Below, in pieces: positions 1,250 to 33,663 of a DNA stretch of 35,428 nucleotides. The notes under the pieces were generated by a model. That model was given only the letters and a program-made list of their open reading frames with translations, was not told where the DNA came from and made no database searches. The stretch is taken from positions 1 to 35,428 of the forward strand of contig CANRPE010000016.1 in assembly GCA_947632405.1 (NCBI GenBank), in the 5' to 3' direction. This DNA is from an uncultured Bacilli bacterium (lineage in GTDB: Bacteria > Bacillota_I > Bacilli_A > RF39 > UBA660). The first letter of the stretch is position 1. Each line of letters opens with the position of its first letter. Position numbers and translations under genes: made by a program.

Positions 1250-2548
1250 ATGGAATTTAAAGAAATTACAGCAGAAGAATTTGATTTATTTTCAAGTAAA
1301 CATGAACAAACGAGTTTTAGTCAAACTAGCTCTTGGGGAAAATTAAAGGAAGTAAATGGTTGGAAAAGTCATTTTTTAGCTCTATATGATCATAAAAAAA
1401 TTGTAGGTGCAACACTTTTATTAACCAAAGATTTACCTATTATTCATAAAAATATGTGTTATGCTCCTAGAGGATTTTTAATTGATTATAGTAATACTAA
1501 GTATTTAAAAGAATTTACTAATAATATAAAAATTTATGCTAAAAAACTTAATGCTATTTTTGTAAAAATTGATCCATATCTTAGTTATCAAGAAAGAGAT
1601 TTAGATGGAAATATTGTTAAAAATGGAAAGAATAATAAGAAAGCATTTTCTAATTTAATTAAGTTAGGATATAAGCATTTTGGATTTAACCTAATGCAAG
1701 ATACACTTCAACCTAGATGGATTTTTATAACTGAAACAAAAAATAAAACTGTTGAAGAAGTTATGGCTGGTATGGATTCAAAAACAAGACAAATCATTAG
1801 GAAAAATGAAAGATTAGGTATTACAACAAGAGAGTTAACTTATGATGAATTACCACTTTTTAAAGATATTATGCAGCATACAGGTGATAGAAGAAATTTT
1901 ATTGATAGGCCTTTATCGTATTATCAAAATATGTATAAAAATTTAGAACCAAACGGAATTTTAAAGATTTTAATTGCTGAATTACATGCTGATAAATTAA
2001 TTAAAAATTTAAAAGAAGAAATTAATACATATCAAAAAGAGTATGATGATAGAAAATATAAGCATGATGAAAAAATTAATATTATGAATGAAAATAAATA
2101 CCTTCAAAAACAAAAAGCTACTGAAAATGAAATTAAAAGAGTAACTTCAAAATTAGAAGAAATAAAAAAACTTCAAAAAGAAAATGGAGATACAATTACT
2201 TTAGGTGGAATTTTATTTTTAATTCATGGTAATGAAGTTGTTTCACTTGTTGGTGGTTCTTATGAAAAATTTATGGAATTTCAATCTGCATATACTGTTC
2301 ATTGGGCAGGATGCAAATATGCAATTGAAAAAGGTTATGATCGCTATAATTTTTATGGAATTACTGGTGACTTTAGTGAAGATAATCCATTAGTAGGCTT
2401 GTATTTATTTAAACGAGGATTTGGTGGAAAAGTCGTAGAATTAATAGGAGAATTTGATCTTGTCATATCAAAATTTTGGTTTTTTGTTTATAATGCTTCT
2501 TTTAAAATTTATCATAATTTAAAAAATTTAAAATCAAAAATTAAATAA
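1250..2548 (+). CDS. FemX/MurM-like peptidoglycan aminoacyltransferase
   Basis: Predicted FemABX-family enzyme, which adds amino acids from aminoacyl-tRNA to the peptidoglycan stem peptide to build the interpeptide bridge at the cytoplasmic face. The N-terminal half (SFSQTSSWGKLK near residues 22-33, then a GNAT-like fold with YAPRGFLIDY) and the C-terminal part (VHWAGCKYAIEKGYDRYNFYGITGDF) are family-typical. Residues about 243-310 are a long charged heptad-rich segment matching the antiparallel helical arm that distinguishes this family. Length (432) is normal. AAAGGAG at 1232-1238 supports the ATG. Which amino acid it adds and at which bridge position cannot be determined; femA, femB, femX or murM would all be over-precise names. 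Confidence 0.88.
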   Translation: MEFKEITAEEFDLFSSKHEQTSFSQTSSWGKLKEVNGWKSHFLALYDHKKIVGATLLLTKDLPIIHKNMCYAPRGFLIDYSNTKYLKEFTNNIKIYAKKLNAIFVKIDPYLSYQERDLDGNIVKNGKNNKKAFSNLIKLGYKHFGFNLMQDTLQPRWIFITETKNKTVEEVMAGMDSKTRQIIRKNERLGITTRELTYDELPLFKDIMQHTGDRRNFIDRPLSYYQNMYKNLEPNGILKILIAELHADKLIKNLKEEINTYQKEYDDRKYKHDEKINIMNENKYLQKQKATENEIKRVTSKLEEIKKLQKENGDTITLGGILFLIHGNEVVSLVGGSYEKFMEFQSAYTVHWAGCKYAIEKGYDRYNFYGITGDFSEDNPLVGLYLFKRGFGGKVVELIGEFDLVISKFWFFVYNASFKIYHNLKNLKSKIK

Positions 2549-2577
2549 TTGACGAATGCTTAGAATAAAAGTATCAT
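2549..2577 (+). promoter_or_regulatory. Promoter of the first H-x-H-G membrane protein
   Basis: TTGACG (2549-2554), 17-base spacer, TATCAT (2572-2577): five of six consensus bases in each hexamer. The -35 begins immediately after the stop codon of the FemX-like gene and the start codon lies 18 bases downstream of the -10. Confidence 0.6.
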
Positions 2578-2594
2578 AAATAAGAGGTGGTAGT

Positions 2595-3167
2595 ATGTTA
2601 TATCAATTAAAAACTAGAAAAAAAGAAATCATAATTATTTTATTTATTTTAGTATTTGCACTTTTTTTTACATATAAAATATATTATAAATTTAAAAATT
2701 TAAGAAATGTTGACTATAATACTCCAACTATTGACACTACTTTTCATGAAAAAACAGGAGCAGAAATAAATTTAACTAAATTAACTCCAGTTACAGATGC
2801 TATTGGATTATCTTCACGAGCTTATACTTTTACAATTAAAAATACTACTAATTCTAGTTTAAAATATTCTATTACAATAGAGGATAATGCAAAAAAAATA
2901 AAAAGTGATGATTGTTATGAGTATCAGATTCCACATAATTTAATAAAATTTTCTATTCATAAAAAAGGTGAAAAGAATAGTATTTATACTTTAAATAATT
3001 TAATAAATGGTGAAGTATTAACAAGAATTATTAAGTCAGGTCAAGAAGAAGAATATACAATGAGATTTTGGATATCAGGTGATTCCTTACAGATAGGAAC
3101 AAATCTTCATTATCATGGTTTAATTAAAGTAAATGATTTAGGAGCTCAAGTAGCAATTAGTAAATAA
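2595..3167 (+). CDS. Single-pass membrane protein, H-x-H-G family, copy 1
   Basis: Function unknown. Residues 1-12 are basic, 13-30 form a transmembrane helix or uncleaved signal anchor, and the remainder is a predicted extracytoplasmic beta-rich domain. It shares an ordered set of motifs with proteins at 3280-3855 and 32937-33593: P-x-x-D near the domain start, AYTFTIKN, an aromatic-S/R-I strand, a single Cys in DDC, FWIS, and NLHYHGLIKV near the end. The fold outline (signal anchor, beta-sandwich, YTF-x-I-x-N) recalls TasA/camelysin-type proteins, but I see no definite family signature and no SipW peptidase gene here. Its own promoter and GAGGTGG ribosome binding site precede it. Expected on the cell surface; secretion and partners unknown. 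Confidence 0.8.
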   Translation: MLYQLKTRKKEIIIILFILVFALFFTYKIYYKFKNLRNVDYNTPTIDTTFHEKTGAEINLTKLTPVTDAIGLSSRAYTFTIKNTTNSSLKYSITIEDNAKKIKSDDCYEYQIPHNLIKFSIHKKGEKNSIYTLNNLINGEVLTRIIKSGQEEEYTMRFWISGDSLQIGTNLHYHGLIKVNDLGAQVAISK

Positions 3168-3174
3168 TTAAATT

Positions 3175-3223
3175 AAACAAAAACTTATATTTATGTAAAG
3201 TAAAAAAAGTAGTTTTTGTTTTT
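3175..3223 (+). terminator. Terminator after H-x-H-G copy 1
   Basis: An 11-bp perfect inverted repeat, AAACAAAAACT (3175-3185) and AGTTTTTGTTT (3211-3221), with a 25-base loop and U-rich 3' arm. The long loop lowers confidence. Confidence 0.5.
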
Positions 3224-3224
3224 A

Positions 3225-3253
3225 TTTACAAAAAAATAAAATTTAGATATAAT
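3225..3253 (+). promoter_or_regulatory. Promoter of H-x-H-G copy 2
   Basis: TTTACA (3225-3230), 17 bases, TATAAT (3248-3253). Ideal spacing and a perfect -10. The predicted start of transcription near 3260 favours the ATG at 3280 over the ATG at 3268. Confidence 0.75.
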
Positions 3254-3279
3254 CAAAGTAAGTTAGGATGTGGACTATT

Positions 3280-3855
3280 ATGGAAAAGAAAAAGAAAGAA
3301 AATAAATTAGGGTTAATTGTATTAATATTTAGTATAATTATTTGTTTATTGACAGTTAGTTATGCAATTTGGACACAAATGTTTCCAGGAACAAAAGAAA
3401 ATAAATTAAATACAGCAACATTAATATTAACAATGAATGAAGCAAATAATACTGCTATTTCATTAACTAATGCTGTACCTGTTTCTGATCAAAAAGGTTT
3501 AACTTATAAACCATATACTTTTACAGTAAAAAATTCAGGAACGGCTAGTGCAAATTACAGAATTATGCTTGTTAATGATACTAATTCATATGAAACAGAT
3601 GGTTGTGAAGATATGAAATTAGACTGGTCAAATATTAAATACTCTTTTGCTAAAAATAATGAAGTAACAACAACAGGAGTTTTATCTGATACTGCAGGAG
3701 TATTAAATATAGGAACTATTAGTCCTAAAGAAACAGATTCTTACAGTTTAATTTTATGGATAAGAAGTGAAGCAACATCTGAAATTATGAATCATCATTT
3801 TCATGGAAAAATCAAAATAGATGCTATTCAAAGTGATCAAGCTCTTAGTGATTAA
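3280..3855 (+). CDS. Single-pass membrane protein, H-x-H-G family, copy 2
   Basis: Paralogue of the preceding protein, function unknown. A Lys-rich N-terminus, a hydrophobic helix (about residues 10-27) ending in VSYAIWT, then an extracytoplasmic domain. Shared motifs: VPVSDQKG, YTFTVKNSG, TDGC with the only extracellular Cys, LILWIRS and HHFHGKIKID. The SYAIWT segment after the hydrophobic core resembles the cleavage region of TasA-like exported proteins, so it may be released rather than anchored. The ATG at 3280 is chosen because AGGATGTGG lies upstream at suitable spacing; an in-frame ATG at 3268 lacks a ribosome binding site. It has its own promoter and a strong terminator overlapping the stop codon, so it is a single-gene unit. 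Confidence 0.8.
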   Translation: MEKKKKENKLGLIVLIFSIIICLLTVSYAIWTQMFPGTKENKLNTATLILTMNEANNTAISLTNAVPVSDQKGLTYKPYTFTVKNSGTASANYRIMLVNDTNSYETDGCEDMKLDWSNIKYSFAKNNEVTTTGVLSDTAGVLNIGTISPKETDSYSLILWIRSEATSEIMNHHFHGKIKIDAIQSDQALSD

Positions 3856-3881
3856 AGACTTCGTTTAAGTCTTCTTTTTTT
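3855..3881 (+). terminator. Rho-independent terminator
   Basis: AAGACTT, loop CGTTT, AAGTCTT, then C and seven Ts. The stem starts at the last base of the stop codon of H-x-H-G copy 2. Confidence 0.85.
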
Positions 3882-3929
3882 AAAGATGATACATAAAATG
3901 ATAGTATAGTGATTAAGGGACGTGATATA

Positions 3930-5018
3930 GTGAAAGTTATCATTTGTGCAGGAGGAACTGGAGGACACATTTATCCAGCTATAGCAATTATTAATAAAAT
4001 CAAGGAAAAAGAACCAACTAGTGAGTTTTTATATATAGGAACAACAGACCGAATGGAAAAAGATTTAATACCTAACTTAGGAATTCCATATGTTGGAATA
4101 GAAATGGAAGGATTAAATCGCAAAAATATTTTAAAAAATATCAAAGTATTAATAAAATATAAACATGCTATAAATAGTGCTAAAAATATTATAAAAAATT
4201 ATAATCCAGATATTGTAATTGGAGTAGGTGGTTATATTACAGCACCTGTTTTAATTGCTGCTTATAAGTTAAAATATAAAATATTAATTCATGAACAAAA
4301 CTCAATTCCAGGAGTTTCAAATAAACTAATTGCAAAGTATGCAGATAAAATCTGTGTTTCACTTCCTAATTCAACTAAATACTTTGCTAAAGATAAAGTA
4401 GTTTATACTGGAAATCCTCGAAGTGAAGAAATTTTTTATATTAAAAAGAAAAATAAAGAAGAATATGGATTAACTAATAATAAAAAATTAGTAATTATGG
4501 TCATGGGGTCATTAGGATCAACGACAATGACTGAAAAAATAAAAGAAATGATTCCAAAATATAAAAATAAACCCTATCAAGTTTTAATTATCACGGGTAA
4601 AAATTATTATGCTGAATACGAAAAAATAACAATTCCTAAAAATGTAGTTATCGTTCCATTTATTGAAGATTTTACTTCTCTTTTAAAGTCAGCAGATTTA
4701 ATTATTTCACGTGCAGGAGCTTCTACAATTGCAGAGATTACTTCCATTGGTATTCCATCTATTTTAGTACCATCTCCATATGTTACAAATAATCATCAGT
4801 ATAAAAATGCTAAAGAATTAGAAGATATTGGTGCAGCGAAATTGATTCAGGAACAAGATTTTTCTACTGCTTTAGTTTTAGAACAAATTGATAAAATTTT
4901 AACTGATCAAACATTGTATCAAAAAATGAAAAAAAGTTCAGCGAGTTTAGGTGTAAAAGATTCTGCTACTAGAATTTATTTAGAAATAAAAAAATTAGTA
5001 AAGGAAGATACAAAATGA
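3930..5018 (+). CDS. murG: MurG, lipid II-forming GlcNAc transferase
   Basis: Transfers GlcNAc from UDP-GlcNAc to lipid I, giving lipid II, at the inner face of the membrane. Family marks: the N-terminal GGTGGHIYPA glycine loop, HEQNSIPG, and in the C-terminal UDP-GlcNAc domain GSLGS and SRAGASTIAEI followed by the P-S-P-Y stretch. About 362 residues, normal. I place the start at the GTG at 3930 (MKVIICAGGTGG) because AAGGGA at 3915-3920 is correctly spaced. The upstream GTG at 3909 adds seven residues unlike the family N-terminus. The last four bases overlap murB (ATGA), so the pair is translationally coupled. It opens the murG-murB-divIB run. Confidence 0.96.
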   Translation: MKVIICAGGTGGHIYPAIAIINKIKEKEPTSEFLYIGTTDRMEKDLIPNLGIPYVGIEMEGLNRKNILKNIKVLIKYKHAINSAKNIIKNYNPDIVIGVGGYITAPVLIAAYKLKYKILIHEQNSIPGVSNKLIAKYADKICVSLPNSTKYFAKDKVVYTGNPRSEEIFYIKKKNKEEYGLTNNKKLVIMVMGSLGSTTMTEKIKEMIPKYKNKPYQVLIITGKNYYAEYEKITIPKNVVIVPFIEDFTSLLKSADLIISRAGASTIAEITSIGIPSILVPSPYVTNNHQYKNAKELEDIGAAKLIQEQDFSTALVLEQIDKILTDQTLYQKMKKSSASLGVKDSATRIYLEIKKLVKEDTK

Positions 5019-12985: not shown

Positions 12986-13828
12986 ATGAAAAAGTTTAAT
13001 AATAAAGGTTTTGCTATTTCTACCATGTTATATGGACTTTTAATTATAATTGTCTTAGTAGTAGGAACAATTTTAGCAACAATGGCTTTTAATCGAAAAA
13101 CTAGTAAAGAATTTACTTCTGAAGTTATTGAAGAATTAGAAGGCAAATTAGGAAGTTCTTATAGTCCATATTTTAAGGTATATAATTATAATGAAAAAAG
13201 TTGCCCAACAGGCGATGAAGAAACTTGTGTTGAAACAGATTGTTATAAAGAGGGAAAATCAGAATGTAGTGTAGGTACTATTGTTGATTATAAAGTAAAT
13301 AATGAGAAAACTATTACTTTTAATGTTTTAAAAGATAATAGAAGTACACTTATTATGCAATCAAAAGATAGTATTGTAACTAGTAAGTGGTATACAGGTT
13401 CTGATACAACTACTTATCCAGGTGATGCACTAGATGCATTAAAAAATGCAACACAAGATTGGACAAATGTAGAAGAATTAAATTATATTACAGGAAAATC
13501 TTGGTTTGGAATTCAGCCATGGACTAATGCTTTTTGTTCTAATGCTATCTATAAAGATTGCAGTGGTGCTGCTACTCAAAAGAACAGAGAAGGTGATAGA
13601 GCTAGAATAATTTTATTACAAGAGTTACTATCTTTTGGTTGTACTAGTTCTAATTACTCATGTGATAATTGGATTAGACCAAGTAATACTTCTGTTTGTT
13701 ATTGGACTATGAATGCAGGAATTAAAGATTATATGGCATGGTATCTTCAAGGTTCATCTGTTCATTCTAAAAATATATCTTATGAATGTGGAATTCGCGC
13801 AGTAGTAATAGTAAAAAAAGTAAAATAA
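12986..13828 (+). CDS. Pilin-like N-terminus with Cys-rich surface domain
   Basis: 280 residues, function unknown. The start MKKFNNKGFAISTMLYGLL resembles a class III (prepilin) signal: short basic leader, K-G-F, then an uninterrupted hydrophobic helix (about residues 8-30). The Glu expected at +5 of a mature pilin is absent, so cleavage by a PilD-type peptidase is doubtful. The outer part has ten Cys in several local groups (for example CPTGDEETC, SYSC-type pairs and YEC near the end), an even number suggesting disulfides, and a C-terminal segment CYWTMNAG...GIRAVVIVKK that recalls lectin-like surface domains of gut Firmicutes. Ribosome binding site weak (AAGGG at distance). A clear terminator overlaps the stop. 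No pilus assembly gene is in the window. Confidence 0.7.
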   Translation: MKKFNNKGFAISTMLYGLLIIIVLVVGTILATMAFNRKTSKEFTSEVIEELEGKLGSSYSPYFKVYNYNEKSCPTGDEETCVETDCYKEGKSECSVGTIVDYKVNNEKTITFNVLKDNRSTLIMQSKDSIVTSKWYTGSDTTTYPGDALDALKNATQDWTNVEELNYITGKSWFGIQPWTNAFCSNAIYKDCSGAATQKNREGDRARIILLQELLSFGCTSSNYSCDNWIRPSNTSVCYWTMNAGIKDYMAWYLQGSSVHSKNISYECGIRAVVIVKKVK

Positions 13829-26762: not shown

Positions 26763-27266
26763 ATGTACAAAATTAGTCAAGTTTTAGAAAATGTTGCAAA
26801 ATATGGTAATTGTGTAGTGTATAAATCTCATCATAATAATAAAAGAGCTAATCAATTTTATGAATTTATTGTAAATTCAGAAGGTGATTTAGTATTTCGT
26901 AATGGTTTAGCTATATTTGATCAAGAATTTTTTGATGGTAAAATCAAAAATAAAGATGCAAGAGTTGTGCAAACTATATTAGCAGATAAGGATAATGTTA
27001 TTTCTTTAGCAACTGCTATTAATAATCTTTTTTCTTATTCACTATACGATTCATATAAGGGAGAATATATATGTATTACAGCAGATAAAATGAGAAAGTA
27101 TCCAAAATCTAATAAGGCAACATGTATATTATATAAAACTATTTGTAAAGAATTTGGTATTAGTGATGATTTTAGTTCTTTAGATGAGATAGTTTCTAGT
27201 ATGGATCAAGCAGTTGCAAAATTAGATTGTAAATTATTAAAAAAAGAAATTCAAAAGCAAAAATAA
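26763..27266 (+). CDS. Unrecognised 167-residue cytoplasmic protein
   Basis: I do not recognise a family. No signal peptide or membrane helix. The N-terminal half is mixed alpha/beta (YGNCVVYKSHHNNKRANQFY, EGDLVFRNGLAIFDQEFFDG), the middle has VVQTILADKDNVISLATAINNLF, and the end is basic helix (KLLKKEIQKQK). Codon use resembles the neighbours, so nothing suggests recent transfer. It has its own promoter, a GGGGAGG ribosome binding site (26747-26753) and its own terminator, so it is a single-gene unit between the ABC operon and an AI-2E-type permease. Function cannot be inferred from context. Confidence 0.8.
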   Translation: MYKISQVLENVAKYGNCVVYKSHHNNKRANQFYEFIVNSEGDLVFRNGLAIFDQEFFDGKIKNKDARVVQTILADKDNVISLATAINNLFSYSLYDSYKGEYICITADKMRKYPKSNKATCILYKTICKEFGISDDFSSLDEIVSSMDQAVAKLDCKLLKKEIQKQK

Positions 27267-32936: not shown

Positions 32937-33593
32937 ATGGGAAAAAAAGTATATCGTTTTAGACCAAAACAGAAAATATCTCCTCAAACAGAACCACATG
33001 ATGATATTAATAATAAAAAGATTAAAGTAAATATTAGTAAATCTTTAGCTAGAGAAATTAATTTTACATTAGTTTTTGCTTTTTTAATATGTGTTTTTCT
33101 TTTAGCAAGTTCTTATTCTATATTTTCTGTCAAAAATAAAAGTAAAGATTATAATTCTATTACTGTAGGAACATTGAAAATTGATTTTTTACAGGATACT
33201 ATAAATGTTTTAAATTTAAATGGAGCTTATCCTACAAGTGATGAAGATGGTCAAAAAGAAGAACCATATACTTTTAAGATTACTAATAGTGGTTCTTTGA
33301 ATGCATCATATAGTATTAAAATTTTAAATGATAATGATATGATAGCGGCAGATGGTTGCCAAAATAATTTATTAGATGATTCACTTATAAAAGTTAGTAT
33401 AAATAATGGAACTCCTTTTTTACTATCTTCAATAAAAGATAATGATTATGTAATTGAAAATGGAATTATAGAAGCAAATGTAACAAAGAATTATGAAATC
33501 AGAATTTGGATTGTTGATACTGCAGGTAATGCTGTATTAGGTCGTCACTATCATGGTAAAATTATTGTTGATGGTGTCAATTTAAATACTTAA
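32937..33593 (+). CDS. Single-pass membrane protein, H-x-H-G family, copy 3
   Basis: Third paralogue, function unknown. It has a longer basic cytoplasmic N-terminus (about 45 residues, KKVYRFRPKQK... KIKVNISKSLAREI), a membrane helix at about 46-63, then the shared outer domain: GAYPTSDEDGQ, EPYTFKITNSG, ASYSIKIL, ADGC with a single Cys, EIRIWIVD and GRHYHGKIIVDG. The longer cytoplasmic tail could carry an interaction absent from the other two. It stands between holA and ruvA with its own promoter and a strong terminator, so it is an independent unit some 29 kb from its relatives. Confidence 0.8.
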   Translation: MGKKVYRFRPKQKISPQTEPHDDINNKKIKVNISKSLAREINFTLVFAFLICVFLLASSYSIFSVKNKSKDYNSITVGTLKIDFLQDTINVLNLNGAYPTSDEDGQKEEPYTFKITNSGSLNASYSIKILNDNDMIAADGCQNNLLDDSLIKVSINNGTPFLLSSIKDNDYVIENGIIEANVTKNYEIRIWIVDTAGNAVLGRHYHGKIIVDGVNLNT

Positions 33594-33597
33594 TCTT

Positions 33598-33626
33598 AAT
33601 ATTCAAAGAAATTTGAATATTTTTTT
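33598..33626 (+). terminator. Terminator after H-x-H-G copy 3
   Basis: AATATTCAAA, loop GAAA, TTTGAATATT, then Ts: a 10-bp stem four bases after the stop. Confidence 0.9.
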
Positions 33627-33634
33627 ATTATTCA

Positions 33635-33663
33635 TTGACAAACATTTGTTTGTTTAATATAAT
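33635..33663 (+). promoter_or_regulatory. ruvAB promoter P1, full consensus
   Basis: TTGACA (33635-33640), 17 bases, TATAAT (33658-33663): perfect hexamers at ideal spacing. Overlapped by the LexA-like palindrome. Confidence 0.85.
33639..33652 (+). promoter_or_regulatory. LexA-like (SOS) operator before ruvAB
   Basis: CAAACATTTGTTTG, core of the 16-base palindrome ACAAACA-TT-TGTTTGT (33638-33653). Against the Bacillus LexA/DinR consensus CGAACRNRYGTTYC, as I remember it, 11 of 14 positions agree. It covers the end of the -35 and half the spacer, where a bound repressor would block RNA polymerase. ruvAB is an SOS operon in many bacteria. Confidence 0.6.

Follow-up and report, generated by a model that had tools for sequence, protein, structure and literature searches.

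Three genes of one protein family lie in the window, the 35,428-nucleotide stretch of contig CANRPE010000016.1 from an uncultured Bacilli bacterium. The initial annotation had described three ORFs of 190-218 residues, two of them in tandem, and all three are present:

2595..3167, + strand: copy 1 (group A), 190 aa; membrane helix and TasA-like beta domain
3268..3855, + strand: copy 2 (group B), 195 aa; SipW-type signal S-Y-A-I-W and TasA-like beta domain
32937..33593, + strand: copy 3 (group C), 218 aa; long basic cytoplasmic head, helix ending S-Y-S-I-F, and TasA-like beta domain

The relatedness proposed for the three proteins was borne out by BLASTP, with E values ranging from 1e-13 (copy 3 against copy 1) through 1e-24 (copy 1 against copy 2) to 2e-28 (copy 3 against copy 2); pairwise identities are 28-32% across most of the length, and the motif order said to be common to the three is found in the sequences. 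The copies are real paralogues. In a profile search of the genome copy 3 scored E 7.6e-85, and in the family tree it grouped with L004 and L023, the latter likewise adjoining ruvA. As had been claimed, copies 1 and 2 sit between a wall-bridge enzyme gene, femAB (FemAB match, E 1e-109), and a GT28 (MurG-type) gene, after which come murB, a POTRA/FtsQ-type gene and ftsA. Copy 3 is flanked by holA and ruvA-ruvB. Two further ORFs in the window gave no Pfam match, one of 167 aa at 26763-27266 and one of 280 aa at 12986-13828; in L117, L118 and L120, relatives of the latter are next to the orthologue of copy 1.

Each gene had also been credited with its own promoter, and most with a terminator. The sites that bear on these claims are:

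3168..3225, + strand: possible terminator of copy 1, an AT-rich hairpin with a T-rich tail (fold z -1.6, weak)
3225..3253, + strand: promoter-like site before copy 2, TTTACA-17-TATAAT (11/12 matches)
3856..3886, + strand: possible terminator of copy 2, a T-tailed hairpin (-4.9 kcal/mol, z -1.2)
33594..33632, + strand: likely terminator of copy 3, a T-tailed hairpin (-7.2 kcal/mol, z -3.0)

A separate promoter is plausible for copy 2 and less so for copy 1; across 2400-4000, however, promoter-like sites are just as numerous as chance predicts. Around copy 3 such sites are in excess (21 vs 12.5), but the perfect one, at 33635-33663, is downstream of copy 3 and upstream of ruvA. AT-rich, T-tailed hairpins do lie 3' of all three genes, although only that of copy 3 exceeds its shuffles, 0 of 200 of which were as good.

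At the level of databases, the description of the family as undescribed-looking was right. Neither copies 1-3 nor ten paralogues had a Pfam or NCBIfam match above cut-off, and a PHROGs search of copies 1-3 returned sub-threshold or chance matches only. The sole recurrent hint was to camelysin, PF12389, at E 0.001-0.06 in three paralogues, the best of which scored 19.3 bits against a cut-off of 22.5; no protein of the genome passed that cut-off. Membership of PF12389 was therefore rejected, since copies 1-3 had no match to it and the paralogues stayed below threshold. Among 195 genomes drawn from the phylum, PF12389 was matched in one. A profile search seeded with the three domains, as the initial annotation had advised, found 15 family genes at E < 1e-5 in the 1.35-Mb genome, and no curated Pfam or NCBIfam model claimed copies 1-3. 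Members were present in 92 of the 146 genomes of the same order that were searched, some of which hold more than 20. A pattern scan of genome contigs gave 69 family loci, nearly all metagenome-assembled, under titles naming Bacilli, Firmicutes, Erysipelotrichaceae, Tenericutes, Mycoplasma or plain bacterium. The plasmid and phage collections searched gave nothing meaningful for the family, so that an origin from mobile elements is without support. A literature search found no published account of TasA/SipW homologs in Tenericutes. Copies 1-3 are members of a large family of surface proteins, TasA-like, SipW-linked and uncatalogued, in uncultured gut-type Bacilli. The domain also heads larger proteins. 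On contig C10 of the same genome (L090, 1429-6990, - strand) one of the 15 members forms the TasA-like head of a surface protein of 1854 aa, which continues with bacterial Ig-like domains and Listeria-Bacteroides repeats, and proteins of 450-1400 aa elsewhere (L042, 2-7965; L052, L074, L038 and others) carry the family domain N-terminally, often in tandem. In the L042-type large proteins other Cys residues replace the C/HxH set discussed below, and one such L042 protein that was scanned in full gave zero Pfam matches.

The single N-terminal helix and outer domain that had been proposed were recovered in the AlphaFold2 models of copies 1 and 2 (mean pLDDT 90 and 88), each of which consists of one hydrophobic N-terminal helix and a beta domain; copy 3 aligns with them over its whole length. 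Copy 2 is predicted to adopt the TasA-type beta-sandwich (jelly-roll) fold. On superposition, the comparison that had been suggested at the outset, the best of 991 aligned chains was the TasA fibre 8aur (Z 8.0, rmsd 3.3, 125 residues), the only chain with Z >= 8; CanA 7uii and AbpA 7ueg were lower. Foldseek placed the bundling pilin AbpA 7ueg first for copy 2 (probability 1.00), with CanA second, and CanA first for copy 1 (E 8e-4). The similarity of the copy 1 model is at the level of CanA (9dlo, Z 6.6), and TasA was absent among the structures listed for it. The copy 1 model also matched other beta-sandwich domains at Z about 6, among them carbohydrate enzymes and a bacterial toxin receptor domain; these were set aside as reflecting tied, common arrangements and not function. 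PDB sequence searches found no TasA, and their only relevant sequence-profile match was a weak one to AbpX (9sj2, 9rhp; E 0.8). Values of Z 6-8 for predicted models could by themselves reflect a common beta-sandwich arrangement. The TasA-like assignment is convincing because three further findings point the same way as the fold match, namely the sipW locus, the weak camelysin matches and the signal motif, and the resemblance to TasA/camelysin noted by the initial annotation was the right lead.

The copies are of three kinds. In most members the signal helix ends in S/T-Y-A and is followed by a hydrophobic, often aromatic, residue; the cleavage column of the family alignment is that of Ala33 of copy 2.

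2676..2678, + strand: Lys28 of copy 1, in the column holding the Ala/Ser/Gly of S/T-Y-A in other members
3358..3372, + strand: putative SipW site S-Y-A-I-W in copy 2, with the presumed cut after Ala33 (alignment column)

Ala, Ser or Gly occupies this column in 86 of the 89 members outside group A vs none of 34 in group A (Fisher p 3e-27). A SipW-type signal, that is, a small residue followed by an aromatic or hydrophobic one, is found in copies 2 (SYA-IW) and 3 (SYS-IF) and not in copy 1. Group A proteins have a helix followed by I-Y-Y-K-F-like residues, are strongly conserved, and were seen as one copy per genome examined. Group B, that of copy 2, has the cleavable motif and adjoins the group A gene, before murG. 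Group C, which contains copy 3 and L004, combines a long basic head with a cleavable motif, and its genes lie beside ruvAB or are fused to a further domain. The three proteins had all been called membrane-anchored. This stands for copy 1, which probably stays in the membrane as a lasting anchor, given that none of the 34 sampled orthologues has a small residue in the cleavage column. Copies 2 and 3, by contrast, have SipW-type cleavage motifs and are probably released after cleavage. The simplest reading of these sequences is that group A would be a permanent membrane anchor and groups B and C released subunits.

It had also been suggested that the genome be scanned for sipW and for more copies of the family. 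In addition to the 15 members, the scan revealed a SipW-class peptidase (TIGR02228, 105.7 bits vs a cut-off of 51.85) inside an array of four paralogues on contig C1 of the genome; from its P-S-M ... T-H-R ... K-G-D residues we take it to be of the Ser/His ER type. Eight genomes of the order, the present one included, share the arrangement tatD-family-sipW-(family)-ksgA, sometimes with a family gene and two unnamed membrane proteins between sipW and ksgA. TatD and KsgA at the locus of the present genome were confirmed by Pfam. The locus of tatD, TasA-like genes, sipW and ksgA (L088, 4783-10914 on C1; L162-L168) is conserved chromosomally. Across genomes, a TIGR02228 gene is present in 91 of the 92 with the family vs 44 of the 54 without it (Fisher p 2e-4). 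Copies 1-3 are themselves not linked to the sipW locus, which counts against the overall reading given below. A second SipW-like peptidase, on contig C49 (L097, 1474-3046, - strand), forms the C-terminal part of a multi-spanning membrane protein of 364 aa and adjoins a secreted-looking protein of 166 aa of another SipW-type kind (GYSTFATNFNIKG).

The invariant H-x-H and a lone Cys had been taken to suggest a metal or ligand site. The Cys is single outside the membrane; within the helix, copies 2 and 3 carry another. Nor is H-x-H-G a hallmark of the family as had been supposed: it marks one branch only, being present in 4 of the 15 members of this genome. The residues concerned are:

2907..2915, + strand: D-x-C of copy 1 (Asp105, Cys107), putative metal ligands; Cys invariant in the HxH set
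3108..3116, + strand: H-Y-H of copy 1 (His172, His174), putative metal ligands; invariant in 28/28
3598..3606, + strand: D-x-C of copy 2 (Asp111, Cys113); follows the D/E/C/H rule at -2
3796..3804, + strand: H-F-H of copy 2 (His177, His179); tied to Cys
33351..33359, + strand: D-x-C of copy 3 (Asp139, Cys141), from sequence; follows the D/E/C/H rule at -2
33546..33554, + strand: H-Y-H of copy 3 (His204, His206), from sequence; tied to Cys

When the HxH set was aligned, the Cys and the two His were the only invariant residues beyond the general family positions. Of 84 relatives, 27 have both the Cys and H-x-H and 57 lack both; among 123 non-redundant members the counts are 58 with both, 65 with neither and none mixed. 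The residue at -2 to the Cys is mostly D and otherwise E, C or H in 63/63 members, including L046 and L117, which were scored by eye (both D), and C-x-C occurs in three members of two lineages (L024, L115, L123). The two elements, [DECH]-x-C and H-[FY]-H, are thus conserved and co-occur, and four positions are limited to metal-ligand residues, as a metal site predicts. If the domain is a TasA-like jelly-roll, its topology would bring the first residues of the final strand next to the last residues of the strand that enters the Cys loop. On sequence grounds, then, [D/E/C/H]-x-C with H-[FY]-H resembles a four-ligand metal site, and the joint occurrence and the restricted -2 residue support that idea indirectly. 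Three changes in the trait were counted on the tree, all joint, and five joint changes on a quick tree built without the trait columns; a sign test on independent pairs was not significant, the events being too few to test the Cys-HxH tie. A point against the overall reading given below is that group A can be present without another HxH member among the fetched paralogues, as in G009, G029 and G064.

It is possible, if rather doubtful, that the TasA-like fold and SipW processing have been read correctly while the Cys/HxH trio is not a metal site but a branch marker passed on by descent, serving as a structural hydrogen-bond cluster or, through the lone Cys, in a disulphide between subunits. 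The trio does mark mostly a single branch, so that its co-occurrence could largely be explained by shared inheritance, and the paired Cys found in the same loop in other branches (L128, L129) indicate that the Cys loop tolerates disulphides. Neither hydrogen bonding nor a disulphide sits well with a -2 residue that varies only among D, E, C and H, the C-x-C of two lineages included, or with the joint switching of Cys and HxH in all observed changes.

The neighbourhood of copies 1 and 2 bears on a different proposal, that the proteins are not fibre subunits but act as monomers, either attached to the membrane or secreted, and as wall-associated factors aid cell-wall building. Their place between femAB and murG favours it, and the copy 1 and copy 2 orthologue pair precedes murG in several other species. 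In many genera, however, the copy 1 orthologue is elsewhere, or directly 5' of a gene that is followed by rpmF (L32) and that, though without a Pfam match, we take from its context and from family features to be DUF177/YceD-like. The murG neighbourhood is therefore not essential to copy 1 orthologues, and a murG/FemAB-specific function was rejected as a general explanation because orthologues occupy other loci. Copy 3 adjoins ruvAB, and the structurally solved relatives are fibre or tube subunits, so that we regard a wall-factor role as unlikely. That the HxH branch is an extracellular metalloenzyme, as the label 'camelysin metalloendopeptidase' might suggest, is very improbable: it has in its favour the invariant metal-type residues and the weak PF12389 matches of sister proteins without HxH, but H-E-x-x-H is absent, none of the conserved residues other than the putative ligands looks catalytic, and most family members keep the domain without the Cys/HxH site.

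We consider it somewhat better than an even chance that copies 1-3 are surface proteins of the TasA/CalY/archaeal-bundling-pilin type, with SipW-cut fibre subunits, copy 1 as anchor, and a branch with a metal site. A Sec signal helix would carry each chain across the membrane, and a SipW-type peptidase would cut copies 2 and 3 after S-Y-A or S-Y-S, freeing an N-terminal aromatic segment as donor strand. The released subunits could then join head to tail by donor strand into surface fibres or coats. Uncleaved copy 1 and its orthologues would form the membrane base or anchor, with a beta groove into which a released subunit could insert its donor strand. In the HxH branch, all three window copies included, the [D/E/C/H]-x-C of the loop and the H-[FY]-H with which the last strand begins may make up a four-ligand site, most likely for zinc, that would lock the fold or a subunit interface. 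Of this picture, the homology, the pattern of signal motifs, the linkage of the family to sipW, the TasA-like predicted fold and the coupling of Cys with HxH were observed; cleavage, donor-strand exchange, fibre formation, anchoring and metal binding are inferred from them. More tentatively, the family may be a branch of the superfamily of TasA-like donor-strand fibres that is latched by metal, has an uncleavable group A anchor and has expanded to at least 15 surface subunits in very small genomes of uncultured Bacilli. In this genome the group A gene sits within the wall/division cluster.

Among known systems, TasA of Bacillus subtilis (8aur) forms a donor-strand fibre to which some archaeal pili are structurally related, and a cation is possibly held by two Asp in its fibres (PMC9674648). 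The likeness to TasA lies in the SipW-type signal, the beta-sandwich of copy 2 and a sipW gene adjoining family genes; unlike TasA, to which identity is 14%, the window family has a shorter domain, D-x-C and H-x-H, an uncleavable copy 1, 15 paralogues and PF12389 scores below cut-off. TasA homologues, which are found in bacteria and archaea, are called camelysins, and that of Bacillus cereus, CalY, is encoded in a sipW-calY1-bc_1280-calY2 operon (PMC10151520). Several TasA-like genes are arrayed with sipW in both cases, but the present array is flanked by tatD and ksgA, the window copies are elsewhere, and PF12389 is not matched above cut-off. AbpA (7ueg) and CanA (7uii, 9dlo), the top Foldseek matches of copies 2 and 1, are, with AbpX (9sj2, 9rhp), known subunits of surface filaments or, for the cannula protein CanA, tubes; unlike the window copies they are archaeal, and identity to them is very low. 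A possible functional parallel to copy 1 is TapA of B. subtilis, which is membrane-associated and starts TasA filaments (PMC10151520). TapA, however, is cleaved and has an Ig core with disulphides, whereas copy 1 is a subunit paralogue that keeps its helix.

Most of what is known of TasA-type fibres comes, to our knowledge, from Bacillus biofilms and from a small number of archaea. The TasA relatives described here make up a large paralogous family, invisible to Pfam and NCBIfam, in the reduced genomes (about 1-1.5 Mb) of uncultured gut-type Bacilli. If the Cys/HxH residues bind metal, they would offer a testable way to lock such fibres or to sense metals in them. Group A would suggest attachment of fibres to the cell without TapA or sortase.
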